From Heterotrichella gracilis (taxonomy: Eukaryota > Sar > Xanthophyceae > Tribonematales > Xanthonemataceae), in contig JAULBX010025120.1 of NCBI GenBank assembly GCA_032358255.1, forward strand, positions 1 to 64,000: DNA of 64,000 nt. The letters run 5' to 3'. Numbering within the stretch: position 1 is the first letter of the stretch; each line of letters opens with the position of its first letter. Made by a program: the position numbers and the translations under genes. The notes under the pieces are model-generated. The model saw only the letters and a program-made list of their open reading frames with translations. It was not told the DNA's origin and ran no database searches. This document shows positions 1 through 63,003 of the stretch, piece after piece.

Positions 1-1403
1 CCCCCAGCCCCAGCTGCGCCCCCACCTCCTCCCCCACGTACTCGTTGAACGACCCCTCATACCCCTTGTCCTGCATCTTGAGGTACTGCAGGAACAGCTG
101 CACAGTGGTGTCCTCAGCAACGGGGTCCTCCTCTGCAGGGGGGAAGTAGGGGGTTCAGGAGAAGAAGAGGGGAGTGGGGGGTGCATAAAGGGCAAGCACT
201 ACAACACAAATGTAAGGGGAGGGGAAGTTTGTGTGTACACGGGGGCAGCTTATTGTGATCAGCTCTGATCGTGTACACTGTGATCAGCTCTGATCGTATA
301 CCATGCACACACCAACCCCATGGCCTTCAAACTCACCACTGGGATCAGCCCTTGTCATCTTCATTCGCCCCAGGTGATTGATCCTTGTATGCTGACATAT
401 ACATCCCGATACACGCACCAAAACCTTAAACCCTAATGCACTGGCTCCAAACCCTACACCCCCGCCACTGTCGCGCACCTTCCTCCCCAAACTCCTCCAT
501 GGGGATTGCCTCTGGCTCCTCCATCAAAAACCCTAAACCCTAACACACTGGCTCCAAACCCTACACCCCACCGCTGTCGCGCACCTTCCTCCCCAAACTC
601 CTCCATGGGGATTGCCTCTGGCTCCTCTATCTGGAAGTGGTGCGCATTGGTCCCTGAGGAAGAACCACAAAGTAGGGTTAAATGCCTGGGAGAAACAGTG
701 CCACCTTGAACACCACTAGTCACATAAGCAGAGTTGGGGTGCCTGGGTGAGCACTTCTAATCAGCATTATTCCGTTGATGCAAAGATTCCAGCAAAATGC
801 GTGTGAATGCAGGGATGGTGTGGGTGTGGCTGCGGGTATGGGTGAGGGTGCGACTTACCCTCAGGTACCCTCACAAAGTACCTCCCCTCCCCTGCCAGCG
901 CAGGCCGAACCCGCACGTAGGCTGCACCAGAAGAACATGTGTAAGCGGCCAAGGGGGCATGGAACACGATACCACCAGCATTTGGCGGGCGTTTTGTACT
1001 GCATTAATTTGCTCTAACCGGCAGGAAATGCACGTGGTTGGCTGTTGCCGGGGGAACAACAGCCCGCTGTGTGAATCGTGGAGCAGCAAGGGGCCATGCA
1101 CCTAGGGGCGATACATGCATTCTGCCATTGGTGTGCACCCGGGCGGCAGATGGCGCACGCGTCTGCGTGGTTACCACGGGTGTGCATTGATGGCAGCAGG
1201 AGCAACAGCAGGGTGCAGCGCAGGCAAGCGAAAACCCAGTTCCACGCAAAAACCCTTGCAAAGGGTTTGAAAACCTTGCCAGGCACACACCCCTGGGAAG
1301 GGTTCCCCCTACCCCAGCCAGGGCACGCACCGTACTCCCCCGTGTGCATCCCGATGCCCCCAATGGTAAACGAGCGCTTGAGCGTCTGTTGGTAGGGCCC
1401 AGG
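1..1403 (-). CDS. LPXC: LpxC-like UDP-3-O-acyl-GlcNAc deacetylase, N-terminal part (gene runs off the left edge)
   Basis: Zn-dependent deacetylase of the lipid A-type pathway that plants and some algae keep in organelles. I assemble four in-phase exons on the minus strand: 1331-1403, 859-921, 585-653 and 1-132. The joined peptide contains QQTLKRSFTIGGIGMHTGEY followed by AYVRVRPALAGEGRYFVRVP, which matches the first LpxC beta-strand block (QTL...GxGLHSG...VRxxPAxAGEGRYF). The next two exons (HFQIEEPEAIPMEEFGEE; VAEDTTVQLFLQYLKMQDKG) are not familiar from bacterial LpxC and may be an algal insertion. The Zn-binding HLLSA region is not reached, so it should lie to the left of the window. The first exon(s), with start codon and transit peptide, were not found; they should lie above 1403. 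The 585-653 exon has a decayed copy of its 3' end in the following intron (see repeats). Confidence 0.62.
422..645. repeat. Tandem duplication (about 107 bp period) of an LPXC exon end plus intron edge
   Basis: The stretch beginning near 434 (CCCTAATGCACTGGCTCC...) is repeated about 107 bp further right near 541. Each copy carries the end of the LPXC exon, the donor GTGCGCG and the flanking CCCTAAA filler. Only the right copy (585-653) has the acceptor side and the upstream half of the exon, so the left copy is a pseudo-exon end sitting inside the intron. Confidence 0.85.
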
Positions 1404-3297
1404 CTGCACACGCACATGCGCAGTTGGCGTGAGCCAAGGCAGGTGATGGTTGAGATGTATGGCAACCGAGTGTGGCGTAGGCCGTCAAGGGCAAGCACAC
1501 ATGCGTGTGGCAGCAGGAGAGCAGCACAGTACTTCACTGTCCTTCCCAAGCCGTGATGTATGATCACATGGAAATTGGCCGAAACTTTGGTGATGCAAGG
1601 AGTCTATCTGATGTAATTTACATCGCACATGCGGCTTCATGCATCCTACAGATGACACATGATATTACCTATGATGCAACACATTCGCCCTGCACAGTGC
1701 TTATATACCAAGCACACAGTGCTTATATACCGATGCACAGTTCTTATATACCAAACTACATTATAATACAAAAATATTTATTGTACAATACCACACTACA
1801 ATAAAAAATGATGCACTGCAAAATACTGTAAAAATACACTACAATGTGCTGTACAGGAAAACAGTCAGCAGTGCGCACCGCCGGCATCTGCGGCTTGTCT
1901 GACTTTGGCTTCCTCCCTGCCCTGCTCTTCTTCACAGCCTCTGCTGCGCTGCTGCACTGGGTGGGGGAGGCATGGCGCACAGCGGACGGGGAAGCGTGGC
2001 CGGCCTGCGGGGGGGCAACAGCACACAATGACATTACGCAATGCGCATTCTGTTACGTTGAAGAGGGGCAATTGCCCTGCTTTTGATGGGTTGCATTGGG
2101 ATGGGATGTGGGCGATGAGGTGTGTGGGTAACATGGTAATGCAATGGAGGGGCATCCATGCCATGGCCGGCCCTGCTGGTCGGTGGAAGGTGGGGCAATC
2201 CACTATTATGAGATGAAGGTGACGTGGTGGGGAATACGGCAAGGCTCTTGCCATGTGAAATTTGTTGTACCCTAGGGTTGGCCGCTGCGGTCACTGTGGT
2301 ACTGCTCCTGGTCAAGCTGTGCAGTGTCCTTGCGCCACTGGCGTTCATACCTGGAAGACGCTCGTGTTTGCAAGGAAGCTCGAGCTTCGATGGGATGTCA
2401 ACAGTCTATTCGTGGTCTTCCCGGGCAGGGCTGTACAACAGGTTGTACGTTTTGGGTGAATGCCCGAACCGATAGTACATGCATCAACATGCATCAATAT
2501 GGGGAAGTGGGTGCAAAAGCAATTGAAAGCTTAGACCAAGCTTAGCTCACCTATTGCAGCCCTCCCAGTGCCACTGACTGGCAGAACCCTGCTCATCTCC
2601 CCAAATGCACCTACAGAAAGGGTGCACCAGTTTAGCACAGTGGCCCACCTATGCCAGGGCCTAAACAGGCACCTCAGCACGTCCAAAAATAACGTGCGTA
2701 CAGTGTATAGTGTTGACTACCACCCGTCCAACCTTACGTGGGGGGCTTGGTGCTCCTGCTGCTGTATCTAGCCAACCGTGCTAGGCTAGGATGCTGCGGC
2801 TGCCAATATGGTATTTACTGATGCCTGTGGCAAACCCTATAGGTAACCAACGTTTCCTATAACCTCGTAAAACAAAGGGCAAACAAGGCTACGAGCCTAG
2901 CTACTTTTACAGTAGACCAAGTTGCGGCACTGGTGGGCACCCACCGTGTTCAAACAGGCGAAACAACTGCAAGCAAATTGGCAACTTGTGCCGGAGAGGG
3001 GGTAGTCATACCACGAGCAGAAGCCAGGTGCACTGGCACTTTGACCTTATAGGCCAAACGCATGGCCGCCACAGTCGCTGACCCTCGAGCCTGAAGTATC
3101 ACCCTCCCAAGGTGTATCAATAGTGGCAGGGGAAACGAGGTGAGAAAGTGGGCCCAACCATCGAGTGGCTGACGGGTCGTGGTACGTCGAGCTTGAAACC
3201 TTGGACCCAGCTACAATACGGACTGCAGGCTCTTACAATGGAGCTGTTACACGTGCGTTTTACCCTTGCATCCCTTGGAAAAGTGTTGCCCCTCGGC
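1404..3297. other. Intergenic stretch, no gene recognised
   Basis: Separates the LPXC fragment (minus) from the NTF2-like gene (plus), so it should hold both promoters and the missing first exon(s) of LPXC. Short reading frames here do not look like proteins. At 1691-1755 there are three imperfect 20-21 bp copies of a GCACAGTGCTTATATACC unit, which could supply TATA-like sequence. The 1755-1850 region is AT-rich. Confidence 0.5.
1691..1755. repeat. Three imperfect copies of a 20-21 bp CACAGTGCTTATATACC unit
   Basis: The core CTTATATACC recurs at about 1700, 1721 and 1743, each time preceded by CACAGT. It is a small tandem repeat in intergenic DNA. The TATATA cores could act as TATA-like elements, but no transcription start is visible. 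Confidence 0.8.
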
Positions 3298-11085: not shown

Positions 11086-11086
11086 C

Positions 11087-11505: not shown

Positions 11506-14500
11506 CCGCCGCCGCCGCCGCCGCTGCAGCCGCCATAGCCGCCTCCGTCATGTTGGCCAGCACTGTGGCATTGGGGCAGTGCAGCGTCTGGAACTTGTGC
11601 TGGCCCATGACGCACATGACCTGCGTCTGCAGGGTGTGTATCTCCTCCAGCTCGGGGTTGCCCCCGTTGAGGAAGGGGGTGAAGGCTGGATCCAGGCATG
11701 ACATCATGAGGGAGGTGATTTTCACCTTGTGCTCGCCGCTGCTGGTGTCGGGCAGCACAGTGACCGTCAGCAGGCACCTGAGGAAGGGGGGTAGGGGAGG
11801 GGGTCACATGGGGGTTGCATGAGCACATGTCAGCTCATCGCATCCTGGATTGAAGATGGTAGGCAAGCAGGCAACTCGTTCCAGGTCCTACACCCATTTC
11901 CAACCTACTTACACATGGAGTGGCACAAGGGGTGCACAGCCAGTTCCTCGCCAGCGCCCCCCCCCTTTCTCCACCAGCCAATCTCCAAATATGCCAGTAG
12001 GATCCACTGTGAGGTCGCCCCCCTAGCTAACTCACATTGAAACACCATGCTTAACTACCTGACTGCGACGCCTGCGTGCAGTGCCAAAACCCCAAAGACA
12101 CAGGGGAGTCTTGGAGCAGACCAACCAGAGACACTTGCATGCGCACCCTCCTACACCGGAAAGCCCCGGCCCAACCACACCACACCACACCACCCCCCCC
12201 GCCCCACGGCCATGCAGCATGCAGCGCCCATCCTGAGGAGTTGCAAAACCCTACAAGCAGAGGTGTCCCAAACCCTGTCCACAACCTGTCTGACTGCGAC
12301 ACCTGCATGTAGTGCCAGTATTCCTGGGACACAGGGTGGTCATGGTGCAAATCCATGGTGCTCTCGTCACGTTTACACCACCCTACACCGTGAAACCCCA
12401 CTTTTCAGACCCCGCTACTCCCTGCAGCCCCACCTGAATACCTACATGCAAGGCTATTCCTCAGACGCTNNNNNNNNNNNNNNNNNNNNNNNNNNNNNNN
12501 NNNNNNNNNNNNNNNNNNNNNNNNNNNNNNNNNNNNNNNNNNNNNNNNNNNNNNNNNNNNNNNNNNNNNGCTGAAATCTACATGCCCCACCTGTCTGATT
12601 GCGACACCTGCATGTAGTGCCAGTATTCCTGGGACACAGGGTGGTCATGGTGCAAATCCATGGTGCTCTCGTCACATTTACACCACCCTACACCGTGAAA
12701 CCCCACTTTTCAGACCCCGCTACTCCCTGCAGCCCCACCTGAGTACCTACATGCAAGGCTGTTCCTCAGACGCTGCTGAAATCTACATGCCCCACCTGTC
12801 TGATTGCGACACCTGCATGTAGTGCCAGTATTCCTGGGACACAGGGTGGTCGTGGTGCAGGTCCATGGTGCTCTCCTCGCAGGTGCACCCCCCTGTGCAG
12901 CGCACCACTGCCCTGCCCATGTGGCTGTACGAGCGCAGGTGACCGATCCCAAGCACGATGTTGGAGGCCGAGGTCAGGCCCGTGCAGTGCATGGTGGCCA
13001 CCTGCGGGTGGGTGGTTATGTTGAGGGGTTGGAGGGAACAGGGGGGGGGGTTACCCAGATGCAGCCGTAAACATTACCCTGCGCAATTTGGGCCACGCGC
13101 CGCAGCGCACGGCCATATATGCAAAAGCGGGTGCAGGAACCTACAACAAGGTACCCGGATACCCTACGCAAGGGTGCACACCAGGCACAGCCCCGCCCAG
13201 CCTCCCTCCAGCTCACCTCAATGCTCAGCACTGAGCCGGGGGTGCTGGAAATGTAGCCGATTTTGGGTGCCCCCCGGTGCCCCTCGTCCTTCCACTCCCA
13301 GCCCTGCAAGGGGGGGGGGAGGGTGCGTCAACATGATTAGTAGGGCAATCAGGTGGCATGCGCACCCAGCAATGGACGTGATTCTTTCCGAATGCTTCGA
13401 GGGTTTCAAAAGGGCTGCACAGGGCTGGTAACGTCTGCCGCGCGCTTCCTAGTACGCATTGAACCTGTTGCAAAGTCAGGCTATTGGCTTTGTTGGGCGT
13501 GGCAGGTTTGCCCCCTCCCCAGCAATTTGAGGCAATGATTCAGGATGTAGAGAGTGCTCAGTTGGATTCCTTGATGGTACATGCATTATGGTACATGCAT
13601 TAAGATTTCTAGACTTGCACTGCAGGTCCCTGCGCTTCATTTGAACCACGAAGACCCCCACCCTCCACCCACCCCCACCTGTGCCCCAGTGACATGTGCC
13701 TTGAACCCATCCCGAGTGAGGCAGGTGTAGGCGGAGTCCCCACTGCCTGGCAGGATGGGGGGCGGCAGGGGGGGCGGAGCGCCGCCACCCCCCGCCCGCG
13801 CCAGGGGTTGCATGAGGGTGAGCGTGGCAATATCTTGGAAGTATGAGATGATGAGGTCAGCCAGGTACCTGGGCCAGGAACAAACCCTATCTTGCTAGAG
13901 AATTAAACCCGATTTACCAAAACAACGGATTGTAGATGATTCACAACAGAGGGAGATGATGAGGTCGGCCAGGTACCTGGGCCAGGGGCCGAACAATCAT
14001 GCTGACATTTGTAATGATGTGAAATATTGGTAACAGAGAAAGATGAGGAGGTCATGCAGGTATCTGGAGAAGGGGAAGGGGGGCATTGCAATGCAATGCC
14101 ACGAGATATGGAACAAACCATACCAACATGTTGCAGCACCTGCTTGTTACTACATCAGCTCCAGGCAAGCACAAAAGGGAAAATTTCCACATTCGTGTTC
14201 CAGCAATCCCACTCACCCCCACACATTCCCCCGCGCGGAAAAAGCCATGCACAGGCAGCACCATGCTATTCCTATGCCCCAGCAAACCCCATGCACCACA
14301 TCCTCCCCGCACCCACCTGTGCCCCACCACATTTGGGTGCACCTTGTCGCAGTAGATCTGGCTGTACCGGTAGCCGTGCTCCTCACCCATCAGGCCGTGG
14401 AAGATGGCGTTGCGCCACGACAGGGAGGGAACCTGGGAGGGGGTTCCTTAATTAGGGTTTTGCTTAGGGTGCTGATTAGGGTATACTTATGCTTCCTCGC

Positions 14501-16746
14501 CCATCAGGCTGTGGCAGATGGCGTTGCACCACGGCAGGGAGGGAACCTGGCATGGAGGTCCTTGGCTAGGGCTTTATTTAGGGCGTCAGGGACCTTAGTG
14601 CTGTGGCATATGGCATTGCCCTCCCTATGCCTCCCCACGCATCAACCCTAAACCCTCCCTCCACCCCAAAGTATGTGTGCTCGTCCTCTGCAGTGTCCCA
14701 GAACACCCCAAACCTCAAACCCTAAACCCTAAGCCACAAAAACCACTTCCCCCCCACCTGGTAGTACGGTATGTGTGCTTGATCTCCAGCCCATCCCCCG
14801 TCAAGTCCCAGAACACCCTAACCGGTGCACCATCAACCCTAAGCCCCTAGCCTTCACCACCCCACCTCATAGTATTCATGCATGTTCTCCAGTTCATTCC
14901 CCTCCCAGTGTCCCACAACACCCTAAACCCTACACCACCAAACCCTCCCCCCACCTGGTAGTACGTGTGCATGATCTCCAGCTCATCCTCCGCAGTGTCC
15001 CAGAACATCTGGTTCATGAGCACGGGGGTGTACCACTGAACAACAAGCACCGCGGGCTGGCTCAGGTACTGGCCAAGCAGCTTGCGCAGGATGGTTTCGT
15101 AGCCGGTCCTGGGGCAAAGGGGGTGTGAATACGTCTCAGCAGGTCAGGGGATACTGGGGGAGGGGGTCATGGCGGCAGCACCAGGCATTTCCGCCACCTG
15201 TAAGGCTTTCCTAACAATCCCACCAAAACCTGGTGCCCTCATCCCTCACCTCAGCGGCGTGTCAAACTCCTTGCCCGCCAGCTGGTAGTCGTTGAGCGTG
15301 AACTCAACCACCACCAGGTCCACCCCATCGGGCACAAAGTCGGTCAAGCAGGGGGCGTAATACAGCGAGGTGGTCCCCCCCAGGCCCCCATTCAGCAACA
15401 CGTGGTCGGGGTGCGGGAAGGTGGTCTTGACCCACTCGTACACCAGTGAGACGTAGCCCTCTGTGGATGAGTTGGCAGTGCCCGCGCCCTGGCTCACGCT
15501 GCCCCCTATGGTCATTATTGTCACGGGCTGGCCTGCGGCAAGGAGCTAGGGTTGTGGTAGGGTTTGGCACAGGGTTTGTGGTAGGGTTTTGGGTCCAGGG
15601 TTGGGGTAGGGATTATGCTAGGTTTGAGGTTGGCTGTGCCTGCGCCCTGGCTCACGCTCCCTCTTATGGTTGCGGGTTTAGGGTCATCATACTCACCGAA
15701 TGGCAGGGAGCGCCAGGGGCTAGGGTTCTGGTAGGATTTGGCTGGGGGTGTGTTGGGGTTTGGCTAGGGTTGCGGTAGGTTTTGGCGAGGACTTGTGGTA
15801 GGGTTTTGCTAGGGTTTTAATGTGCAGTGCATCATGGTGACAGGGGCTGGGGGGTGGGCGTCAGGGTTCAGGTTAGGGTTCATCCTGGGGTTCTCGCTAG
15901 GGTTCACTAAGGGTTCCTGCTAGGGTTTGCTACGGTTCAGGGCAGACTTGCTAGGGTTGCTTAGCGCACCTGCCATCAGCTTTTCCACAAATCGCTTCAT
16001 CCTCACCAAATCCCTGGGAGCCGACCTGCTTGCGCTGATCTTCTCCTCAGGCAGCAGCACCCCGTGGGAGAAGATGGAGTCGAGGAGGGCGCTGGAGTTG
16101 GGCTGTACCAGGGTGGGGTGTGGGAAGTGAGGCGGGGAGTAGGGCATGGGTGGTAGCGTGCAGTACCCTAAACAATTGATCCTTGCAATCTCCCAAGAGG
16201 GGGTGCCATTAGGGCCTGGCTTGGCCGTGTCAGGGTAGCTAGCTAGGGGTACCGGACGTCAAAACCCTAAACCCCAACCCCAAACCCTAAATTCATAAAC
16301 TAAACTGTGAGAAGACTGGGAGCAAGGCTGTCCCTGGGAAAGAGATGCCATCAAGACCCTCGCACGGGGCTTGAGCACGGGTGTGTGGGGGGGAGCGATG
16401 GTGCATTTTCAGTGCACTGCTAGGGTTTCACAACACCCTAAGGGAGCAGCCAGAGCGCCTAGGGTTCAATGGGGTTGTGGTGGGCACGTACCGTGATGGG
16501 CTGGGAGCACGTGGCTGTCCCCGAGAAGCAGATCTCGTCGAGCCCATCGCAGGGGGCCCTGGCGCGGGGGGTGAGCGTGATCTGGTTGAAGGCCTCGAGG
16601 GCACGTGCCTGTCCCTCCTCGGGAGAAAACACCCCCGTCACGCAGGTCTGGTTGGGGTTGAACTCCGCCGCCGCGCCCGCCACCCGCCGCCACGGGCCCA
16701 GCCACAGCAGGGCGGCGGTCACCCACAGGGGGCGAAACGCATGCAT
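11423..16746 (-). CDS. Secreted SGNH/GDSL-type hydrolase with C-terminal Cys-rich domain
   Basis: Nine in-phase exons: 16492-16746, 15970-16102, 15250-15532, 14955-15108, 14317-14432, 13679-13868, 13217-13303, 12796-13001 and 11423-11777; 592 residues. A signal peptide opens the protein (MHAFRPLWVTAALLWLG then GAAA). The SGNH blocks are VTIMTIGGSVSQGAGTANSS (nucleophile Ser in block I), LNGGLGGTTS and VEFTLNDYQ (block III); the late block is KVHPNVVGH, whose D..H pair fits the catalytic Asp-His. The C-terminal part (MGRAVVRCTGGCTCEES ... YMQVSQSDRC ... LPDTSSGEHKVKI) is a Cys-rich beta domain that I know as a partner of SGNH domains in algal proteins. The mature protein probably acts on esters in the wall or secretory path; the substrate is unknown. 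The end is an Ala-rich run. The intron between the last two exons contains a tandem array and the N gap. Confidence 0.85.
12059..12795. repeat. 205-bp tandem array of an SGNH exon end, interrupted by the assembly gap
   Basis: The donor-side end of SGNH exon 12796-13001 is repeated leftwards: a near-identical copy at 12591-12795, another at 12286-12469 that continues after the gap at 12570-12590, and a diverged one from 12059. Each copy retains the exon codons for SQEYWHYMQVSQSD and a donor-like GTGGGGC or a relic of it. Confidence 0.9.
12470..12569. other. Assembly gap of 100 N
   Basis: The flanks join to give exactly one 205-bp repeat unit (184 bp on the left plus 21 bp on the right). The gap therefore sits inside the tandem array with no base missing from the period; the 100 N are a placeholder for an unknown number of units, possibly zero. 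Confidence 0.95.
13860..14070. repeat. Repeated acceptor-side edge of an SGNH exon
   Basis: GATGAGGTCAGCCAGGTACC followed by TGGGCCAGG, the 5' end and acceptor of exon 13679-13868, reappears at about 13955-13987 (one base different) and more weakly at 14041-14066, all inside the intron to the next exon. Confidence 0.75.
14433..14954. repeat. SGNH intron built of copies of both neighbouring exon edges plus telomere-like filler
   Basis: Next to exon 14317-14432 a copy of its acceptor side lies at about 14488-14553, surrounded by TTAGGG-type sequence. Next to exon 14955-15108, decayed copies of its donor side lie at about 14668-14705, 14752-14818 and 14865-14925, surrounded by CCCTAAA-type sequence. 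Filler orientation switches inside the intron, between the two sets of copies. Confidence 0.8.
15533..15969. repeat. SGNH intron: copied exon edge and TAGGGTTT-rich filler
   Basis: At about 15633-15712 there is a diverged copy of the acceptor-side part of exon 15250-15532 (CCTGCGCCCTGGCTCACGCT shared). The rest is dominated by TAGGGTTT/GGTTTTGG variants of the telomere-type unit. Confidence 0.7.
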
Positions 16747-32034: not shown

Positions 32035-33862
<1,828 letters not shown>

Positions 33863-36900: not shown

Positions 36901-36934
36901 GTAAAAGAACACACATTAATGTGTGTTCTTTTAC
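36901..36934. repeat. 34-bp perfect palindrome
   Basis: Arms GTAAAAGAACACACATT and its exact reverse complement, no loop. It lies in the divergent spacer between GET1 and the next gene, preceded by CTTTTT. No flanking direct repeat is visible. Confidence 0.97.
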
Positions 36935-45728: not shown

Positions 45729-45758
45729 TGGCCAGTGACTCAGAGTGATTGGTGACGG

Positions 45759-45811
45759 CAGGGGTGTTAATATATAAACCAGGATCCCTGGTTTATATAT
45801 TAACACCCCTG
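45759..45811. repeat. 53-bp near-perfect palindrome with 7-9 bp flanking direct repeats
   Basis: Arms of 25 bp (CAGGGGTGTTAATATATAAA CCAGG and its exact reverse complement) around a 3-bp centre. The palindrome is flanked by GTGACGG on both sides, or GGTGACGGC if one arm base is counted as flank. It starts 30 bases after the FSH stop codon, so it lies in the 3' UTR and would form a long RNA hairpin. It resembles a minimal fold-back insertion with target-site duplication. Confidence 0.9.
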
Positions 45812-51391: not shown

Positions 51392-54300
51392 TCACTGGGG
51401 CTTCCTGCGGCGCCCCTTGGCCCTCCCCCTTGGCGCCGCCCCGTCCCCTTGCACCCCCGCCTGCTCCTCCCCCTCCTCCTCCCCCCTCATCCCATACTCC
51501 CTCTGGTCCAGGAAGAACTTGCACCCCCTTGCCTCGGACTGGCGTACGCACTGCACACCCACAAAACAAACCGGTTAGGTGCTGCAGGGACATGCATGGG
51601 CATGTGACAGCATGCGCATGCGCAAAAGGGTTGGACGTTCGGCCAATGCATGCATCACACTCAATCTAAAACGAGGCACATGCCATCATTTGAATGCAAT
51701 TCACTGAGTTTTGAAAACCATCACGTGAAATACAACCATGTTGTGGGGAAAAGGACCTCAATGAATCCAATGGAAGCGATTATTGGCCCCCCTCCCCACC
51801 CCCTCCCACCCACCTCCTCATACTCCACCTCCGGCACCTTGACCACCGGCACCCCCACAGGCGACCGACCCCGCACAGCCAGCCTCAGGCTCCTGCCCAG
51901 CGCCTGCGCCACGCGGGGGCTCACAGCGTTGCCCAGCTGCTGGTATCGCTCCACCATGGAGGCGTTGCGCACCCAGGAGCGGGGGGCCCCGCCGGCGGGC
52001 ACGCATCCGACAAATACGTAGTGATCGGGGAAGCCCTGCGGCGTGGGGTGGAGGGGTTTTGAGAAGTGTGTTTTCCCTCTTGAAAAAATGGTACTGAAAT
52101 GGTTGGGAAATGGGTAGATTAGATGGTAACCCTGCGGCGAAGGGTGCCAGGGCAGGGTGGGGTGGGATAATTTACCATAATGTCCCCATCCTTTGAGAAC
52201 AAAGGAGTTTAATTTTCCGTGACCTAAATGGGTGGCCCAAGCTTGGCAAGGCTGATTGCTGACCTGAAATTCTTGCCGGAATTGCAGTTAATAATGAAGC
52301 TGATAATGAGACATTAGATTTGTTGTAACTTTTCTGTAGCACATTACAAAAACGTCTTGGTCGAGGCAAGTCCGCTGCAAGGAGGGGCGCTGAAATAATT
52401 TTGACTCATGATGAACATGGTTTCCGGTGACCTGGCTGAACCTGTGCATGTGATATAACGGACAACAATGCCTCCACCCCAGCGCGCACCCACCTGGCAC
52501 CGCGCGTTCTCCCGTATGCTCAGCACCCTGGCCTGGCTGGGGTGCAGCAGCTGCATGTTGTGCGGCTCCGCCCGACCCACCACCGTGGGCTGCACCTCAT
52601 CATACCACAGCACCCCGAAGCATCCGTGCCTGCCTGATGACTTGCCCTTCTTGTAGGAGATGCACCAGCGGGGGCACAGCAGGTCGCCGGTGGGCAGGAA
52701 GGCGGTGCGCCCGGAGCAGGCTGCGGAATGGGGAGTATGGAACTTGTATATCACTTTGTCAATTTCATTTATAACACCTTGTGAAAATACCCAGTATGCA
52801 CCAGCAAGGGGGGCACAGCAGGTCGCCTATGGGGAGGAAAGCGGTGCGCCTGTGGCAGGCTGCGGGCGGGAAGTGCAGAGTTCAAACAGGCTGCAAGGGG
52901 GAAGGGGTCACATTTCTCTGTTCTCTTGTTCACAACACACACCTCCGGAGGGGGAATGAAGATTGTAATTGAACCCTGTAGAAGTGCACCTCCTCCCTTA
53001 TTCCTATCCCTGCCCATTTCATGCATTTTCCACTTCTTTCACTTTTTAACTGCTATGATGTGGTGCATAGCAGGCTGCATGTGAGGCGCCCCCCCCACAC
53101 ACGCGCCCACCCCCACCCCCACCCCCACCCCCACCGCCCCACCTGCCAGCTGCACCCCCCTCCAGCCCTCCTTGTCGCTGTGGTCAATGCGCGACGTCTT
53201 GTGCGTGGAGGCCTTGACGTAGTCACGCGTGCCGCCACCGGGGCAGGCGGAGCGGCCGCCCTCGCGCATGGCGTGGGTGTGCCCCGCACAGCAGGTGCCT
53301 GGGAGGTGGTGGTTTGTGGTGGGGATGGCGGTGGGTGTGGTGGGATGCGAAGGGTGTGTTGGTGGGTGGGGGCATTGGGGAGGATGGGGCCAGATTGCGT
53401 AGTGGCCGTGCGCATTTTGGCATGTATAGCGCAGCAGGTGCCTTGGGTGTGGGTGGTGGTGGTGTGGTGGGTGAAGTGAAGTGCTGTGTGTGCCGCCTTT
53501 TGTGTGGTTGGCAGTTTACTGTGTGTCAACTGGAGTGGGTAGATGGGCAACCCTCGGCAGTGGCAAGGGTTCTACACAAGAATTTTTGCCCAACGGTTTT
53601 GCACAAGGGTTTTCCCCTCCCCACCTGTCGAGTGTGTTACCACCCCTGGCAGCTTGCGGAAGTTGCTGTACTTCTCACGGGGGACCTGCGGGGGGGAGGC
53701 GGGCCCAGGGTGTGTTACCACTTGTCACTTCAGTTTTGGAACATGAGCCCAGAAAAACCTTTCAAAATGTATACCCACGGCCTCAATGCGATGTGACCAT
53801 CACATGGTCGTCATGTGATCCCCACCCAGAAACCCACCCTCCACCTGTAGTGTGCGCGCTAAATCGTCTGTATTCAGGCACATGACACCCATCCCGCATT
53901 TGACACTCCCACACCCACCCACCTGCGCCCGTGCGCTCCAGATTGTCTGTATTCATGCACATGACCCCACCACTCACCCACTCCCTACCAGCCCCACCCT
54001 GCACCTGTGCCGTGCGAGCCACACCATCCGCATCCAGGCACATGTCCCAACTCCAACTCTCCATGCAATCCCCCACCACCCACCTGCGCCGTGCGCTCCA
54101 GATCGTCCGAGTTGAGGCACAGGCACCTCTGGCTCTGACACATGTCCACAGCCACCAGGCCAGCCCCACCACCCCGCACAGCCTCCCTCCTCAGCCGCTG
54201 GTAGCGCGCCACCGCCACCCCCCCCAGCACCCGCAGCGCCCCCACCATCTGCTCCTCCTCCCCTGGCCGCAGGGGGGATGCTGCCAGGATTGCCACCAAC

Positions 54301-57300
54301 CAGGTGATGGCGGCATCGGCACGCTGGAGGGCGGCCATCGCCTGGGGGGTACAGGGACAGGATTTGGGGTAATGGCATAGGGTTTAGGGTTGCCAGATGA
54401 TGGGTGGTGTCGGCGCGCTGCAGGGCGGCCATCGCCTGTGGGGGTGTGAGGGGTGTGGGTGTGTGGTGGGGGTGGTGGGTGTGCGTGTGTTTCAAGGGTA
54501 ACAAGGTAGTAGTAGTCCGACTATTATCTTCTACCCTTGGTCTTTTGAGCGAATCCCATGTAACCCTAGTAATGGTTCATGGGCCCAGCACACTACCTCG
54601 CACATGAATGCTGCCTGTGTCTTGTAAACATGTATGTGCATTTGCCGACAAATAGGGCAATTATACACGTCACCGCCCTACTGCAGGGTTATCACTCCGT
54701 GCCTGCACAGGTGCAACCGCAGGGCCTCCACCCCCCACCCACCTTCATCCCATACTCGTACGCCAGCCCCCTCTGGCTGGCCGCCACCTCCTCCACCAGC
54801 ACCCGCTGCAGGGGGGGCGCAAGCGTGGTGAGGTGCGCCACCCAGGTCTCTATAACAAAGTTGGTGGCCTTGCGCTGCTCACGTGCCAGCTCAGCGACCT
54901 CCGCCTCTGGCTCCTCCGCGGGGTCGTCATCCGAGGGGACGGCGCGGGGCTGCGAGCGGGGTGTATGAGGGTTTGAGATGGGGGTTTGGAGGGTAGAATT
55001 TTGGCTGGGTGGTTAATCAGTGCAGGGATTGGGGGTTTAATTTAACAATCCGTATCCTTGAGGTGCGCATCCAGGCCAATATTACAGGGTTTTGGAGAAA
55101 GGTAATATGGATATTTCATGGGTTTTTTGTCGCTTCATATTCCCACAGGGTTTCTTACAGAGTTTTCCCGCCCCTCACCTCCGACGCCCCCTCCTCCACC
55201 TTGCCCACCCTGGCCGCGAGCTGTGCGATGTAGTCACCGATGGCGGTGTGGGGTGCAAGGGGGGGAAGCACAGTCTTGTTAGCAAGGTACATGCGGCCAA
55301 CCTGGAGGATGGAGGGGGAGGAAATGCGAGTAGGTAATGGGGAGCAAGGGAGGGACATGTGCTCAAGTACAAGTGTTTGGGGGGGTTGGCAACACGTAAC
55401 TTGACGCACAAAGAGTTGGCAACAATTCCCCATAAATGTGGGCAGAAATGGCGTCAACCCTGGTGCAATAGCCTCATGGGCTGATTGAACCCACCACAGC
55501 CACCTATGTGATGTGGCACACTGTACAATAGGAGACACAGCAGAGACGTCGTCAACAGCCTGGCCTCTGGCTGCATGGCAGGAATGCCTGTAACCAACTT
55601 CCGGGCTGTGCAGAATCCTAACCCCAGGACCTGCACCAGTACCACCATTACCACCATTAGTGTACCCACGCACCTCCACCGCCCCCTCCTCCCCGCACCC
55701 CTTGCCCTCGTATCGCTCCCGCATCACCGCCACCATACGCGCGTGACCGGGGGTCATTGCCCGCACAGCCAGCGCCACCCTTAGGGCCCAGCTGGGCTGG
55801 TAAGTGGGAGGGGGGCGGCGGAACCAGGCCTGCGGGGGAGGGGTGCGATGCGTGTGGGGGTGGGGAGGGGGGTGCACCATAGTGGGATGGCGGTGGCTGA
55901 CACTGGTGGATGGAGTGCACGCTGAGAATGGTTTAGGGCTTAGGGTTTACTTTCTTGGCGGGGGTTGGCCATGCTAGGACCTGAAGGCAAGGTCGACGCC
56001 ACCTTCCACAAACAGGCACAGAAGCAGCTGGGCACCACACCCAAACACTCAACGCACACCCTTGCATCCAGTCCCCACGCAGCTCGCCGCACCATGGGAA
56101 CAACACAGCGGCACAACCCAGACAACTTAGAAAACCCTTTGCTAGGGTTTTTCTGTCCATCGCACCTGCAGCGGCGTCTGTGGCTGTGTTGCGTATGGCG
56201 CCACCTCCTCCACACTGAAGTTGGTGGTGGGGGGCAGGTCGGACAGCACGTCACCCATCACAACCTGGACAAAGGGTGGGTGATAGCAGGTGATTGGACC
56301 AGAGATAGTGAGGGTAAGGAGCAGGTGGTTTCACCATGGTTGGGCTAGCTGGCTGGTTCGTCCCCGTATGCGTGGACGGCAAGTTTGTGGTCGATGGAAC
56401 TGGGTGCTAGGGCGCTGGGCTTTGCCTCATGCCTCATGCAGGGGATGCAAACCATGCAGATGTGTGTGCGCTCAAATACATATTTCCTCGCTTGCCAGGG
56501 TGTGTAGGAATGTTAGGGTTTATCCATGTTCCCATTGGCCCTCACCGGCGGGTATGCGTTGTCAAAGTCCTCCCGAGACAGGAATGCCACCCTGCAGCCC
56601 TGCGCCAGGGTGGGCAGCGGCGTCTTGAAGTCCACCACCTTGTGCGTGGGTGCGGGGAAGGCGGGCAGCTGCTCAATGTGGGACAGGGCGCCCAGCAGGA
56701 AAGCCCTAAGCAAGGATTTACATGTCAGAAAAAGCTCAGGCAAGGGTTGGAGAGCAGCTACTCATCGTAGGGCAGCGCTCTGTGCAGACAAGGCCTAGAA
56801 CTAGGTGCCACTAACCCCTACATGGCTTTTGATCGCATCAGGACAGCACATGGCGGCGAGCGCACTCAGCCAGAAGGAAGGCTATGCACCCCCCCTCACC
56901 TGTACCTCCCCTGGGGCACGCCGTGGTCGCCTGCAGCGATGGAACCCAGACGAACCTGCGCACCAAACACAGGGCGGTCAGTCACAGAAAACCCAGTAAA
57001 ACCCTGGTCATTGGCGCTCACACCCCTTTTCAATGACACTGGCCAACCCTCCAACTAACATGGCCTCTCACCTGGTAGCCCAGCCCCAGCAGCGTGGCCT
57101 GTGCAAACTTTGCATATGCCCCGTGGTCCTTCTTGAAAATGTCCATCACATTCTCCATCACCACGTACCCGGGCCGCAGCCACTCCACCAGGCTGAAGAA
57201 GGCAAGCACCTGACGGTTCCTGGGTGCGTGGGAGGGAGGAAAACCCTGAGTTAGGGTACTGGAAGAGGGAAAATCCAGATTAGGGTTTTGAAGCCACTCC

Positions 57301-60300
57301 ACAACCCTGCTTTAGGGTACAGAGCGGCTGGGCCGCGGACCTCACTAATGGAATTTGGCAGACATTTTTGGCTGCTTTTTGTGCCAACTAGCTGAATGAA
57401 CTCCGGTTAAGCCACCCGTCCCCTCTCCACACACCCACACCCACCCACACATACCTGCTGTCGTCCAGTATGTTTTGGCGTGCCGCGTGTCGGTTGAGGC
57501 CGCTGACCCCCTGGCAAGGCGGGCCTCCGGTGACGATGTCCACGTCGCCGGGTAGGGGGATGCGCTCCTCCCTAGGGGTGTAGGGGATGGAGGTGAGCAG
57601 AAGCGAGGCGCATGTGCCAGAGGTAAGGGTTTTAGGGTTTGTAAGTGTCAGGGCACCAGCACAGGACCGAGATGCCCTTACTGCCCCACATGAAAAATAA
57701 AAGAACAGGAAACGCACAAAATGCTACAAAAAATAAGAATTTAAAACGGGAAAATTTTCAAAGTCTATTGTACATCATGTCGTTAGTCCTTTGCGAATTT
57801 GCAGGGTTTCTTATTTAGGGTTTTAGGCCCGCACTTTACGCTCTGGCGAATGAAGGCCTGCAGCTTGCGCCTGGCGTTTGGCATGACCGCCTCCAGCGGC
57901 TCCCAGGAGTCGTCGTCAGGCCCATATCCCTGCCAGCGCACGCGGAACTGCAGGTAGCACTCACCCTCCTCTAGGGTGAGCACGTTGCCCTTGGACTGGC
58001 CTGTGGGAGGGGAAGGGGGCAGTGGAAGGGGAGACATGAATCAGTGTCCAGCCCTTCAGGGTTTGGGGATTTGGGTTTCAGAAATACCCCGCACTTCACC
58101 TGGCCTCTGGGGCCTAGGGTTGTGGTGATGATGCCAGTCATGGCCTGTCGCTGCTGGTCGGGGTATCAACATATTATGTGGCATATGTAGAGTTACGCAC
58201 CTACAGATGCCACTGCAAAACTCTAGCTACTATCCATAACTAGAGTATTCTTTCCAAACCTTTGAAACATCTAGCCCCAATCCTACACTATGGATTTCCA
58301 CTCGCCCACATTTGCTGCCCCTAGTCGCGTTGTCCATCAGTCACACACCCAAGGATGTGAGCCCAAACCCTAGAAGCCTGACCTAGGGTTTTCCACCCAC
58401 CCACCTTTGGTGCCCCTTGTTGCGTTGTCCACCAACCGCACCCCACAAATGCGCTCAACAATGAACTCCCCGTCAGGCACCGGTTCACTGTCCGCCCCTG
58501 ATTCCTCCTCTTCCTCATCTGATGACTCCCCCTCACAGGCCGCAAGCACCTCGTCGATGGTGGCGGGGCGGGGCGGGTTGGCGGGACCTGGAGGATGGCG
58601 TGCCGCGCGGCAGTCAGCATCGCACAGATCCGAGCAATACTGCGCACATGAATAACATATAGAGTAATGATGAAACGCCCGCCGCAGTCCAAAGACCAAG
58701 TGGCAACTCCCTATTGGACACGTGCCACAGGACCACCACCGTGGCACAGGTGGGTAGAGCACGGGTGACACGGGGTAAGCCCAAAGCCAAAAGCTGGGCG
58801 CCTGCCCCCAAACTACCACCCACCTTTCCCCTTGCCCCCCCTGTCGGGCGGTGGGCCCGGCCGCTTGATGTGTTCATCCTCGTCCGCCCCCAGCACCTCG
58901 TCCCCCCCGTCCCCCTCGCGCCCTGTGCCCACCTTGGTCACCAGCTCGTGCCACTTCTTGAGCAGCACAAGGAACTCATCCACACCGTACTTGTACACCT
59001 GCGGATGGGGATAGGGTTAAGGGTTTGGTTAGGGTTTTGGGGTGATTGCGCTTCTTGAGCAGCAACGTGGAACTCGTCCACACCATATCCAGATACTTGT
59101 ATACCTGCGGGAGATGGACAGGGTTTAGGGATTAGGGTTTGCCTAGGGTCTGGGGTGTATGAGCTGCTAAAGCCCACTTTCCCTCATGGGACCCGACCAG
59201 CAGACAGGCGCACTCCACCTCCACTTCCACCATACTCCCACCCCCACCCCCAACACCCTCCACCCCCACCACGTACATGCGCTGTTGGGTGGTTTGCGTA
59301 GTATGACTCGCACATGTCCTCCATGTAGTCCACCCCCCACTGGCTGGTGATCACGCAATCATCGTTGCTCTGGTCGATGAAGGACAGGCCGCCGCAGCCG
59401 CAGTACAGGTCCATCACGCGAAGGTGCTGCACAGGAAAAAGGAGTAGGGTGTGGATTAGGGTTGGGATAGGTCAATGAAGGACAGCCCCCCGCAGCCGCA
59501 GTACAGGTCCATCACGCGCAGGTGCTGCACAGGGGGAGAGGGTTAGGGTCTGGATTGGGGGTTGGGTTGCGTATGGGGCTAAAGGGAAGCGGGGTGCCGC
59601 AGTACAGCTCGGTCACGCGAGGTGCTGCACAGTAAAAGGGTCTAATCCGATAGGGTGGGATTGGGGTATGGGTCAGGGTTCAGAGAAGGCGAGTCACAGT
59701 ACTGCAGGCTCGCTACAAGCAGATGCCGCATGGGCAGGGTTAAGTTGGGTGTATTTTACAAGCATGTCACAGGTCCAAAATTGCACAATATTGTCGAGGT
59801 CTCGCCAATCCATCCCTGCGTTCTGCAGGCAATACCCTTCATCACACGATGCCCATGTGTCGTATGAGCCGCGTTAGGGACGGCTAGGGACGGTTTTCTG
59901 CCTACTAAGTACCCACATGCCCCCACAGAAATTGAATCTATCCTATATAAGATCAACAGCTGTGTGCTGATTCTGCGCACCCTAGGTTCCCCCTCAAACT
60001 TTGCCAGGTGTGCCTGTGTTGCCTCTGGCACCTCATCGAATGAGTCCACAAAGGTCATGAAGTCCCTGTCGTGCTCCAGGTACCAGTAGTAGTCATGGGG
60101 CTCAGATTGCAGGCGGGGGTCCTGGGGGCCAGCCACGTGGATCACGCGCACGACCCTGCAGGGGGGAGGGGGGAGGGAGGGGTCATTCAGTGGGGAGAGG
60201 GGATGCATTGGGTGGGTGAGGCCCTGATTGGAGCCGGGGGTCATGTGGGGTTGCCAGGTGAATCACGCGCACCACCCTGTGTTGCGCGGGGATGTGTGTG

Positions 60301-63003
60301 CGCGCGCGGGTTTTGGGTAAGTAGCCGCGCAAGGGTACGCCTGTTTTAGGACATGCAATTGTGAAAATGTGTTATACTTGCAACGAAATTTAATTGTACT
60401 CAAAATTTCGTCAAAAAGTTTCTTTTGAAAAAAAACGTATTATTTGAACCAACTGTGTACCTCCCACTCACACACCCGCACGCACCTGTCCAATGAATCC
60501 GCGGGGTTGGTGGTGACATAGCCCCTGTGGTTGTCTGCCGCTGATGCGCGGAACAGCATCTTGTCCGGCAGGGGGCAGGGCACGTAGCCCACGCACTCCT
60601 TTTTCTCCTCGGATACCGCGGCAGATGAGGGGCCGGCGCCATCGGGGTCGGGACGCTTGCGCTTGCCTGGGAGGGGGCCCAACGGTGTGTGGAAAAAAAG
60701 GGGGGGATTATTGCTTTTCAGGTCTCCCGAGCTTGTACACAGGGGGTGGGGGGGGAGCACTCTTCTGGGGGCAATTATGGATTAAGGCATTTACTAAGGG
60801 CTGGCAGATACCCCACACTCCTTGGCTCCCGCGGCAGAGGAGGGGCTGGTGTCATCTGGGTTTGGGCGCTTGTGCTTGCCTGGAGTGGGGACCAATCAGG
60901 TTTTGGGGTAGAGAAAAGGGAGACAACTCTTCATCTTGCATTTGAGATTTTAAGTTTGGTTGAAAGACTACAGTTAACCCTTTGACCCTTTGTAACCCTT
61001 TAACCCTTTGTAAGGAACTCAATATCCCCCAGAATTGCGGCATTCAAACTAAAGCACTTGCACTCGCCTAGGACTTGGGCAAGGGGGGATGGATTTAGCC
61101 ACAGTCCACGGATCTCAGAAGGACTATAATAGGTCCTGTCCTTGACGACCCTTACCTCCCTTCCCCTTTCCATCCTCCTGCTCCTCTTCCCCTGTCGGTG
61201 CTGGGCACACCAGGGTTGTGTCCTGCGGCTTGTAGAACCAGTGGCCACCCACCCACCTCTGGCCCTGCATCATGGGGAGGAGTCAAGGGCATGCAATCTG
61301 CCTAGCGATCGGTGATGGGCATACAGACCAGGAGGAAGTGACAGGCACCGCTGCTTGACGCGCCCACCCTTACGGATCCTGTTTAGGTGTAAAACAGTTT
61401 TTTTTCAAGACGATGTTTGTAAGCACTTGGTAGTATATATTACAGACTTTGATGGTTGGGATCAATGATGTGCTGGGCTCGAAGCCTACATGCAGCTCAA
61501 TGCGCCTACCCTACCACCCCAACACCTCCCTACCACCCTGTAGCCCCTGCCGCACCCTGACCACCTCCACCATCCCCTCGATCCTCCCCCACTCCCCACA
61601 CCCCCTTCCTGCTGCATCCTATAACACTCTCTACCACCAGAAGAACAATTCCCTCCCCCGCAAACCCTACATCTAAATTCTCAGCACCCCTCACCGCTGC
61701 ATCCTGGAACATCTCCGTAACCTCCATCACATAAGCATGCGGCAACCCCTCATCATTCACCAGCCCGCTGTCAAGCTCCACAGTGTCACCCAGGTGGACC
61801 TGCGGGGGCAAGGGGGGGGTGTTAAGGGGTGGAGTCGACCGAGCGGGAAGAGGAGAGGAGGGACTGACCACACACCGCGCAAAATCGACAAGGTTTGACC
61901 AATGACAGCATGGACTTTTTGCCCCCTGGGAGGCATGTTCAGGGATTGGGGTTTCAGCTCGCGGTGCAATACCCTACCGTGCCCATCTCTTCTATCTCGA
62001 GTGTGCTGAAATGCGCCACCGCAGGGAGGGGAGTGTCGGTGTAGATGTCTTCCTCCTGCGACCAAGGGTGCAGGTACACCGTGATGAGCGGGGTAAAGGG
62101 TCTGTGATTGCGCCACCGTGGAGTGGCTATTAGGGCTATTAGTGCTCTTGAGATTGTATGCAGTTGACGCCTGGCAGACAAAAAAATGCACAGCGGGTGT
62201 ACTGAGGATGGCTTCCTAGGATAGCTATGTTTTGTCAAATGTCAGGGTATTCCTGAGTTAACGTAGGGTTTGTTGTCGCTGTAAGGGTTTCAGTTAGGGT
62301 ATTCCCCTACCTGCGCCTCCTTGAGCCGCACCCTATGGCTCGCCGTGTGCCTGTCAGGGTGCACCTACTAGGGTTCTAGGGTTTCCCTAGGGTATTCCCC
62401 TACCTGCGCTTCCTTGAGCCGCACCCTATGGCTCGCCGTGTGCCTGTCAGGGTGCACCTACTAGGGTTCTAGGGTTTGCCTAGGGTATTCCCTACCTGCG
62501 CCTCCTTGAGCCGCACCCTGTGGCTGGCTGTGTGTGCCTGCACCGCCTCTTTGGTGGCTGGGCATCGCTCCCTGTCGGGGTACCTGGCAGCAGCCTCGGC
62601 CTGCAGCGGGGGTTGGGGTTCGGGGTAGGGTTTTATGAAGTAGGGGTGGGGTTTGGGGCAGGGTATTGCATACTGAGGGTTGCGGTGCGGTATAGGGTAT
62701 TGCACAGCGGCCCCGACCTCTAGTGGGCGTTGGGCCCAGCGACAAAGTAAATATTGAAAAGGAACCTGGAACCTAGGCTTCTGTGCGCATTCAATGGCAA
62801 CAGGAATATGCCGAGTCCAACCCGGTGCATTATTTGGTGAATCCAGATATTGGTCTCAGCTATGGAACCTCGCCGCAACCCCTGCACTCTCTGCCGCGTG
62901 CAGGGGTTAGGGTTTACCTGTGGTATGGGCTGTGAGGCCCATCGCACATCTCGGTGCACACAGCCAAAGTCCAGACCAGGTGGCAGGCCAGACCCTCTGG
63001 GAC
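51392..63003 (-). CDS. CMT: Chromomethylase-type DNA (cytosine-5) methyltransferase (BAH + embedded chromodomain)
   Basis: About 25 exons, roughly 1,230 residues. Exons: 62918-63003 (doubtful), 62496-62600, 61978-about 62096, 61695-61799, 61156-61264, 60486-60666, 59981-60155 (BAH region: [34 protein letters not shown]); 59277-59426 (motif [13 protein letters not shown]); 58824-58998; 58405-58587; 57835-58000 (chromodomain [20 protein letters not shown]); 57455-57571 (motif [16 protein letters not shown], catalytic Cys); 57072-57219 (motif VI MENVMD); 56900-56955 (GVPQGRYR); 56546-56705; 56166-56264; 55674-55829; 55179-55301; 54743-54949; 54084-54341; 53641-53685 (YSNFRKLPG); 53143-53298; 52494-52720 ([20 protein letters not shown], motif IX); 51814-52035 ([15 protein letters not shown], motif X); 51392-51550 (basic tail, stop). 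A chromodomain between motifs I and IV defines CMTs, which maintain non-CG methylation at H3K9me. Two junctions (62.5/62.1 and 53.6/53.3 kb) do not keep phase as drawn. Confidence 0.9.
52780..52875. repeat. Copied acceptor-side edge of chromomethylase exon 52494-52720
   Basis: [20 protein letters not shown] CAGGTCGCCxxTGGGxAGGA through CAGGCTGCGG is present in the exon (52660-52725) and again at 52798-52866 in the intron. Confidence 0.9.
53395..53465. repeat. Copied acceptor-side edge of chromomethylase exon 53143-53298
   Basis: GCAGCAGGTGCCTTGGGTGT near 53430 repeats the ACAGCAGGTGCCTGGGAGGT exon/acceptor edge at 53288-53307. Confidence 0.6.
53800..54130. repeat. Donor-side end of a chromomethylase exon present in the exon plus three decayed copies
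   Basis: CCCACCTGCGCCGTGCGCTC CAGATCGTC...GTTGAGGCACAG (exon end at 54084) is echoed at about 53999-54045, 53921-53965 and 53838-53884, each beginning CCACCTGxxxxGTGCG and ending near a GCACATG. Confidence 0.85.
54320..54440. repeat. Copied acceptor-side edge of chromomethylase exon 54084-54341
   Basis: CGGCATCGGCACGCTGGAGG GCGGCCATCGCCTGGGG (54311-54348) recurs as GTGTCGGCGCGCTGCAGGGC GGCCATCGCCTGTGGGG at 54406-54443, with GGGTTTAGGGTT between them. The same exon is thus duplicated at both its edges. Confidence 0.92.
58300..58440. repeat. Copied donor-side edge of chromomethylase exon 58405-58587
   Basis: CCCACATTTGCTGCCCCTAG TCGCGTTGTCCATCA (58307-58341) repeats CCCACCTTTGGTGCCCCTTG TTGCGTTGTCCACCA (58400-58434). 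Confidence 0.88.
58960..59125. repeat. Copied acceptor-side edge of chromomethylase exon 58824-58998
   Basis: CTTCTTGAGCAGCAxxxxGGAACTCxTCCACACC with TACTTGTAxACCTGCGG occurs in the exon (58954-59003) and at 59050-59112, separated by TTAAGGGTTTGGTTAGGG filler. Confidence 0.92.
59370..59640. repeat. Motif-I exon edge of the chromomethylase in three tandem copies
   Basis: GCCGCAGCCGCAGTACAGGT CCATCACGCGxAGGTGCTGC ACAGG is at 59390-59436 (real), 59491-59537 and, more diverged, 59596-59634. The copied segment encodes MDLYCGCGG and its acceptor. TTAGGGTTGGG-type filler separates the copies. Confidence 0.95.
60120..60290. repeat. Copied acceptor-side edge of chromomethylase exon 59981-60155
   Basis: GTGGATCACGCGCACGACCC TG (60137-60158) is matched by GTGAATCACGCGCACCACCC TG at 60258-60279, both preceded by GGGGGTC(C/A)TG(G/T)GG. 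Confidence 0.85.
60590..60885. repeat. Copied acceptor-side half of chromomethylase exon 60486-60666
   Basis: The run from CACTCCTTxxxCTCC through CGCTTGxGCTTGCCTGG occurs at 60594-60670 and again at 60817-60882, with insertions and substitutions. Confidence 0.85.
62300..62560. repeat. Donor-side end of chromomethylase exon 62496-62600 in three tandem copies
   Basis: GGGTATTCCCCTACCTGCGC xTCCTTGAGCCGCACCCTxT GGCT is present at about 62298-62342, 62391-62435 and, as the real exon, 62486-62527. The first two copies are nearly identical (about 93-bp period) with CTAGGGTTCTAGGGTTT spacers. Confidence 0.96.

Follow-up and report, generated by a model that had tools for sequence, protein, structure and literature searches.

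Are exon edges in this alga copied into the adjoining introns more often than chance allows and, if so, by what kind of process? The question is raised by the window, the whole stretch of DNA analysed here, which covers the opening 64 kb of contig C262. A first-pass annotation of the window had reported more than twenty places in which a piece spanning an exon edge is repeated in the neighboring intron, and had stated that no described mechanism of intron growth is known to target exon edges so systematically. We therefore examined the duplications in the window and in further samples of the genome.

Samples and gene models

The genome comprises 68.5 Mb in 903 contigs. Genes were predicted with a Viterbi gene finder. 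Its self-training set (the gene-model sample, 244 kb in all) was the window together with 18 more 10-kb stretches. The genome looks like the nuclear genome of a green alga (GC 55%, CpG observed/expected 0.53). A search for the RuBisCO large subunit gave no match. The splice consensus after self-training was CAG|GTGNG at donors and YYYYTGCAG|G at acceptors. Repeat pairs were counted in 264 kb, that is, in the window and 20 other 10-kb stretches including two from contig C222 (L018 and L019), which were excluded from the training. This 372-kb contig has a GC content of 35-36% in the two stretches, undepleted CpG and long open frames, and it looks like a bacterial contaminant or associate. Besides the 244-kb sample, 46 short loci selected by telomere repeats were used. 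The gene finder overlooks genes at 11-16 kb of the window and in parts of L013, L020 and L022. Therefore, arrays classed as nongenic are in part missed exons.

Local direct-repeat pairs were collected by self-BLAST at periods of 25-1000, and one first-order Markov resample per stretch served as the control. In the window, overlapping pairs with a period up to 400 were merged into arrays. An array was assigned to an exon edge when a predicted edge was located at least 6 bp inside a copy.

Duplications in the window

Self-BLAST yielded 42 local direct-repeat pairs in the window, and the Markov resample yielded none. There are 27 arrays, and in 14 of them a predicted exon edge lies inside a copy. 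Exon sequence is contained in three more (arrays 16316, mostly outside the model, 21157 and 60096), and three further arrays (13845, 14380 and 14719) read by eye as splice edges belonging to a minus-strand gene overlooked by the finder. No exon edge, or an unclear one, is seen in arrays 11133, 12059, 12284, 15471, 36302, 45063 and 49800; both copies of array 36302 lie within an intron. Thus, the phenomenon is present, and it involves about 20 of the 27 arrays, slightly fewer than had been reported. Donor and acceptor edges were each found among the arrays, as had been described. The earlier statement that the copies differ in age also holds, because identities span 71 to 97% across the 20 arrays. 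In contrast, the reported case with a period of about 30 bp apparently corresponds to a satellite (45061-45263; 30-bp unit, 6.3 copies, with CCCTAGGGG-type sequence), to which no predicted exon edge is linked. At 12284-12894, units of 205-305 bp with identity up to 98% and an internal run of N are possibly a partly collapsed recent array. Assembly error is an unlikely source of the arrays because most copies have diverged from each other. The pattern of exon-edge duplication was thus confirmed as real and unusual.

Several of the gene names given at first were borne out. Pfam supports LpxC in a model (1-6214) that also holds a proteasome subunit; probably, the finder fused two neighboring genes. 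Pfam finds a DNA methylase with a chromodomain in the chromomethylase, and the symporter is backed by homologues, the best from Auxenochlorella (48%) and Prototheca (44%). For the glycosyltransferase, there is a GT2-like Pfam match, but its score is just under the curated cut-off. Other models in the window with Pfam matches are GNAT and metallophosphoesterase. The symporter protein is collinear with the Auxenochlorella protein across both exon joins that carry donor arrays. The arrays at exon edges are as follows.

420..631, minus strand: duplication of a donor edge with period 107 and 93% identity; covers the end of exon 585-653 and the intron start; the unit holds TTAGGGTTTAGGGTTT
13845..13986, minus strand: two 34-bp copies, 97% identical; donor edge GCCCAG|GTACCT of the gene missed by the finder, by eye
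14380..14583, minus strand: duplication, period 114, with TTAGGG-type filler; acceptor edge by eye
14719..15007, minus strand: duplication, period 201, with CCCTAAA repeats; donor edge TACCAG|GTGGGG by eye
18795..19057, plus strand: symporter donor edge, exon 18712-18846; unit of 100 bp, present 2.6 times and made of 52 bp of exon, the intron start and filler with AAACCCTAG; protein collinear with the homologue across this join
21772..21977, plus strand: symporter acceptor edge, exon 21945-22210; copy 132 bp upstream, CCCTAA-type filler
22173..22547, plus strand: symporter donor edge, exon 21945-22210; unit of 107 bp, present about 3.5 times and containing AACCCTAGTGAT-type repeats; join collinear with the homologue
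25409..25769, minus strand: glycosyltransferase donor edge, exon 25614-25842; period 196
26155..26304, minus strand: glycosyltransferase donor edge, exon 26243-26476; period 80
52660..52865, minus strand: chromomethylase acceptor edge, exon 52494-52720; period 136
53833..54121, minus strand: chromomethylase donor edge, exon 54084-54341; unit of about 80 bp, present four times, every copy decayed
54300..54443, minus strand: chromomethylase acceptor edge, exon 54084-54341; period 93
58288..58434, minus strand: chromomethylase donor edge, exon 58405-58587; period 95
58954..59168, minus strand: chromomethylase, across the edges of predicted exons 58824-58998 and 59084-59104; period 97
59372..59632, minus strand: chromomethylase acceptor edge, exon 59277-59426; about 2.6 copies of 98 bp, AACCCTAA filler
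60605..60895, minus strand: chromomethylase, between exons 60486-60666 and 60817-60879; period 213
62284..62534, minus strand: chromomethylase donor edge, exon 62496-62600; unit of 93 bp with AAACCCTAGAACCCTAG, present 2.6 times at about 95% identity

Two other repeats were observed in the window. A piece of at most 75 bp in a chromomethylase intron (58644-58718) has 17 other matches (75-95% identity) on other contigs and, judged from these matches, is a short dispersed repeat. The GGT-rich sequence at 19482-19603 matches 63 other places.

Occurrence and patchiness in the sample

In the 264 kb, 153 local direct-repeat pairs were found, and the Markov resamples (one per stretch) contained none. 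Merging gave 104 arrays, of which 87 remained once 17 low-complexity arrays were removed. According to the gene models, 61 span an edge, 12 are outside models, eight are intron-only, three are exon/nongenic and three are exon-only; several of the 12 outside models are, by eye, edges of missed exons. Arrays recur in most of the 18 other stretches, and their distribution is patchy. Pair counts per 10 kb are 5-18 in ten stretches and 1-3 in three, and no pairs were detected by self-BLAST in L010, L014, L015, L026 and L027, although predicted genes are present there. In the window, few arrays are located at 28-52 kb. Telomere motifs, which are described below, and arrays vary together between stretches: in cold stretches, introns with any telomere-type motif number only 3/20 (L010), 3/14 (L015) and 3/12 (L026). 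The words CACCACC and GGTGGGG tend to be more frequent in array-rich stretches.

Codon bias, used as a stand-in for expression, does not account for the patchiness: its Spearman correlations with telomere motifs and with arrays were 0.05 and -0.05, respectively (31 genes). We considered a second organism as the source of the array-free stretches. This is thought unlikely because hot and cold parts share one contig in the window, and because the cold pieces of the window correlate in tetranucleotide usage far better with cold (0.900) and hot (0.852) stretches than with the bacterial ones (0.33-0.34). Array-poor stretches adjoin loaded ones, and a slight tetranucleotide difference remains when arrays are masked.

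Preference for exon edges

The first-pass annotation had offered its claim for refutation if copies were as rare at exon edges as in mid-intron. By this comparison, the claim survives in the 244-kb sample, where the excess at edges holds under two placement nulls. When whole arrays were slid within genes (67 arrays), an edge was expected inside a copy in 32.6±3.8 and was observed in 48, and intron-only arrays were expected in 20.3±3.7 and observed in six. Both observed values fall outside all 400 randomisations. When single units were placed in array-free genes, the edge share of edge-plus-intron events was 0.37±0.07 (maximum 0.57 of 300), as compared with 0.89 observed, or 0.91 once 10 arrays in which one copy lies entirely in an exon are included. 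Among arrays with at least 85% identity, an edge or a copy lying entirely in an exon is involved in 21 of 24, and two are intronic. Therefore, slower decay of the exon copy is not the main cause of the excess.

A splice-motif score that does not depend on gene models gave a smaller effect. At threshold 7, the share was 0.51, as compared with 0.30±0.05 for placement anywhere and 0.36±0.04 for placement in genes. At threshold 8, it was 0.22, as compared with 0.13±0.03 and 0.21±0.05, respectively; thus, at this strictest threshold there is no excess over placement in genes. Therefore, the edge excess is real in the 244-kb sample and its size depends on the null. Because about 60% of arrays this long would meet an edge anyway, the first impression of the pattern has to be tempered. 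The proposal that essentially all arrays derive from exon edges is too strong, given that 6 of the 67 arrays in genes are intron-only.

Arrays were also said to enlarge introns. Indeed, introns with arrays are longer (median 412 bp, 62 introns) than the others (275 bp, 180 introns), but this is a correlation and long introns offer more room. The sequence of the copies suggests that they may plant decoy splice sites.

Telomere-type filler between the copies

Many of the arrays follow a common plan. At donors, the last 26-72 bp of the exon (10-90% range) and some of the intron are followed by a filler, and the block is then repeated; the plan is mirrored at acceptors. In 33 of 73 arrays, the filler between the copies contains a TTTAGGG-type motif; the other 40 fillers lack it. 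Thus, the earlier description captured the edge copies and overlooked both the telomere-type filler and the patchiness. In the 73 arrays, the motif density is 13.1/kb in the filler (71 in 5,424 bp), 5.05/kb in the copies and 3.56/kb in the outer flanks. In introns it is 13.3/kb inside arrays and 2.4/kb elsewhere, and in exons outside arrays it is 0.34/kb.

Because two contigs carry (CCCTAAA)n from their first bases (from position 7 of C70 and position 4 of C140), this is apparently the true telomere repeat here, and the starts of C70 and C140 are likely real chromosome ends. The motif in the fillers matches the repeat at these contig starts, but many of its occurrences are degenerate. Genome-wide, the four-repeat word has 209 overlapping matches and the three-repeat word 834; the reversed control has none for either word.

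Strong telomere clusters in the sample number 123 (86 intronic, 36 nongenic and one exonic); clusters belonging to one array are not independent of each other. Among the intronic clusters, 46 of 86 are located within 40 bp of an exon edge, as compared with 20.9±3.7 expected (maximum 38 of 1000), a comparison that repeated units inflate. Motif coverage is highest 10-40 bp into introns at both ends, also when detected arrays are excluded, and the reversed-motif control never covers more than 1.4% of the bases of a bin. Near acceptors, nearly all of the motif is C-sense, with a peak 20-30 nt upstream (7.5% C-sense and 0.8% G-sense bases). In contrast, C-sense and G-sense motifs are about equal near donors.

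Direct repeats (score at least 30) were found around 85 of 189 strong telomere clusters, as compared with none for shuffled flanks and 7.8% of 600 random positions. In the unselected sample, they flank 56 of 135 clusters, as compared with 11.2% of 600 random intron positions. At control positions 10-40 bp from an edge, flanking repeats were present in 16.8% of 600, and in 10.8% when telomere motifs were avoided. In 80 events with a score of at least 34, the median gap between the telomere cluster and each copy is 5.5 nt. Thus, a direct duplication is found immediately at the junction, as would be expected for tandem duplication at a staggered break. As an example, two identical 41-bp copies flank telomere-like filler at L013:5361-5485. 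According to the gene models, 14 of the 80 events are intron-only and 16 are nongenic; by eye, many of these seem to be exons overlooked by the finder or later copies from arrays anchored at an edge.

Loci selected by telomere repeats

An independent sample of 40 loci was selected solely by three perfect telomere repeats, blind to duplications. Direct repeats (score 30) flank the tract in 16 of the 40 loci, and the other 24 have no flanking repeat at this score. A splice edge was predicted within a kilobase in 26 loci and in none of the other 14. In 12 of these 26, the tract is located within 40 bp of the predicted edge, as compared with 5.5±2.0 under the null (maximum 12 of 400). Six additional loci were taken from the four-repeat list; they include clear cases such as L031 and others, such as L029 and L030, at which no repeat was found.

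In tracts within 60 bp of an edge, TTTAGGG runs away from the exon in 12 of 13 (12 versus 1). Read from the sequence, this exon-to-TTTAGGG direction is the polarity of a chromosome end. Degenerate clusters have the same exon-outward polarity at acceptors (24 versus 1), and at donors they have none (14 G-sense, 12 C-sense). Because the degenerate clusters are polarised only at acceptors, selection against TTTAG-like false acceptors may contribute to the polarity.

Decay of the copies and sequence context

Exon and intron copies were compared in 54 blocks. Mismatches at codon positions 1, 2 and 3 were 94/945, 82/947 and 188/944 (9.9, 8.7 and 19.9%), and this 1:1:2 pattern is the expectation for one coding-constrained and one free copy. 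Because mismatches are equal at positions 1 and 2 and double at position 3, the intron copies are mostly neutral debris and not hidden exons.

In introns with arrays, G makes up 0.43 of positions +6 to +20 after donors, and C makes up 0.51 of positions -20 to -4 before acceptors. After donors, the G content is 0.40 in array-free introns of hot genes and 0.37 in cold genes. Because array-free introns are nearly as G-rich, G-richness alone does not explain the targets. There are 37 telomere junctions within 4 nt, three of them from multi-unit arrays. In the other 34, the overlap between the start of the telomere repeat and the break site is weak: it is at least 1 nt in six and at least 2 nt in five, where chance gives about 25% and 6%. 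When we searched this genome for a second copy of two window stretches as an empty site, none was found.

Proposed mechanism and rival explanations

We tentatively propose, at somewhat short of even odds, that the arrays were left behind when broken DNA near exon edges was repaired, in many cases with telomere-type filler. The process would start around an exon edge, either with a staggered break or with two close nicks on opposite strands. In many cases, TTTAGGG repeats would be added to the free 3' end, most simply by telomerase. Both ends would then be filled in and joined to give exon edge, filler and exon edge, with the coding sequence intact. The unit would sometimes be duplicated again, up to about four copies; the intron copy would be free to decay, and the exon copy would stay under coding constraint. 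Exon edges may be preferred because the G-rich strand leaving the exon (sense after donors, antisense before acceptors) would be a good telomerase primer, possibly exposed by transcription.

The architecture of the arrays, the excess of telomere motifs in the filler, the edge excess and the one-sided decay are directly supported by the data. Break repair is favored because it fits the direct repeats on either side, the presence of the telomere motif at junctions, the lack of a filler family in the 244-kb sample and the one-sided decay. Because microhomology at the junctions is weak, most fillers lack the motif and the search of this genome with two window stretches gave no empty site, we only infer telomerase, as we do the staggered breaks and the reason for exon edges. 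Given that 40 of 73 fillers lack the motif, the telomere step is not general, or its products have decayed. A bolder reading is possible, and we hold it as doubtful: an active telomerase-linked mutational process, coupled to transcription or splicing, would operate at exon borders and treat exons like tiny chromosome ends, with TTTAGGG pointing from exon to intron on both sides, and their repair would steadily lengthen introns and add splice sites.

The edge excess could also arise without targeting. Short duplications may be unbiased, with exonic ones purged and edge-spanning ones visible longer through coding constraint. The exon copies are indeed constrained, and introns are short relative to arrays (median 241 bp in array-free genes); therefore, whole-array sliding already gives 32.6±3.8 edge cases in 67. 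At its strictest threshold, the splice-motif test likewise exceeds placement in genes barely or not at all (0.22 versus 0.21±0.05); one threshold lower, the values are 0.51 versus 0.36±0.04. However, even under this generous null the 48 edge and six intron-only arrays differ from expectation (20.3±3.7 intron-only), the one-unit null gives 0.37±0.07 against the observed 0.89, and 21 of 24 arrays with at least 85% identity are edge or exonic against two intronic. Moreover, telomere clusters, which were found independently of duplications, also crowd the edges (46/86 versus 20.9±3.7). We regard an unbiased origin as rather unlikely. Selection for splicing is less probable still. It would favor telomere-like sequence before acceptors, where CCCTAAAC would serve as a pyrimidine or branch-point element, or after donors, in the form of G-runs, and the duplications would be a by-product of unstable repeats. 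The C-sense peak 20-30 nt before acceptors is at the expected position of a branch point; however, the two orientations are about equal near donors, few introns of cold stretches possess the motif (the 3/20, 3/14 and 3/12 given above), and the direct repeats hugging the insert are left unexplained.

The copy-insert-copy anatomy resembles a target-site duplication, as though an introner or other mobile element that makes long duplications of this kind inserted at exon edges. Against this, 46 fillers of at least 30 bp with telomere motifs masked have no common family: there were three mutual matches of 17-23 bp, two of which are one pair, and no hits elsewhere in the 244-kb sample. The copy lengths also vary, from 27 to 73 bp (10-90%), and we consider an element very improbable. 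The Rogers model, in which tandem duplication of an AGGT-containing exon piece creates an intron, shares the tandem duplication and the AG|GT context with our arrays, and both a donor and an acceptor are inside the copies in 4 of 80 events. In the arrays inspected by eye, however, the copies are located within a longer intron, and the last copy is followed by non-coding sequence and then by a separate acceptor; the collinearity of the symporter protein with its homologue across the joins is also against intron creation. This model has hardly any claim to explain the arrays.

Relation to known systems

Vaughn and Bennetzen reportedly described 'patch-mediated' duplications in rice. The earlier statement that no mechanism has been described is too strong, since related routes are covered by PMC7215372, PMC3022908 and PMC8355091. 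The portions of PMC7215372 available to us report telomeric repeats inserted at double-strand breaks; such interstitial inserts resemble our arrays in that they are intrachromosomal repeats, sometimes with a target duplication, explained by staggered breaks and telomerase. In the same portions, a simple duplication is given for 3 of 66 horse loci, with two more that combine deletion and addition, the repeat is in register with the break in 31 of 40 horse loci, and the intronic human inserts (31%) fit random placement. In contrast, here 16 of 40 loci have direct repeats, exon edges are preferred and the register is weak. According to the part of PMC8355091 at hand, CST and Pol alpha-primase generate small tandem duplications at breaks with 3' overhangs in mouse and human cells. 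There too, the stretch between staggered ends is duplicated, and CST also works at telomeres; unlike for this alga, neither telomeric filler nor an exon-edge preference is described in that part.

In plants, a model in which telomerase acts on transcription-associated 3' ends has been proposed for telomere motifs near genes, in the sections of PMC3022908 that we draw on. In those sections, telo boxes of Arabidopsis introns are near the genome average (150.7 versus 155.2 per Mb), 5' UTRs are enriched and, unlike here, exon-edge duplications are not described. As far as the excerpt of PMC4974935 goes, intron gain by tandem duplication likewise involves splice-site sequence; that system creates an intron, whereas here introns appear to be lengthened. 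Introners, as treated in the excerpt of PMC9860276, likewise add to intron content repeatedly and are reported from green algae as well as elsewhere. They are families of related inserts, none of which was found here in the 244-kb sample, and the characterised introners with target-site duplications have ones of 3-9 bp. A preference for exon edges is not described in the portions of PMC8355091, PMC7215372 and PMC3022908 considered here. Searches of an open-licence library gave no title or abstract opening that describes exon-edge copies with telomeric filler.

Parts of the mechanism are known, and the new part is the concentration at exon edges together with the telomere polarity in clean tracts. 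The growth of introns is commonly attributed to transposons or slow drift. In this alga, growth leaves a recognisable scar, in which two edge copies often enclose a telomere-type repeat, and scars of many decay stages are present; therefore, its birth, decay and consequences for splicing are directly legible. Should the link to telomerase be real, gene structure would be shaped from inside genes by an enzyme of chromosome ends, at places defined by splicing.
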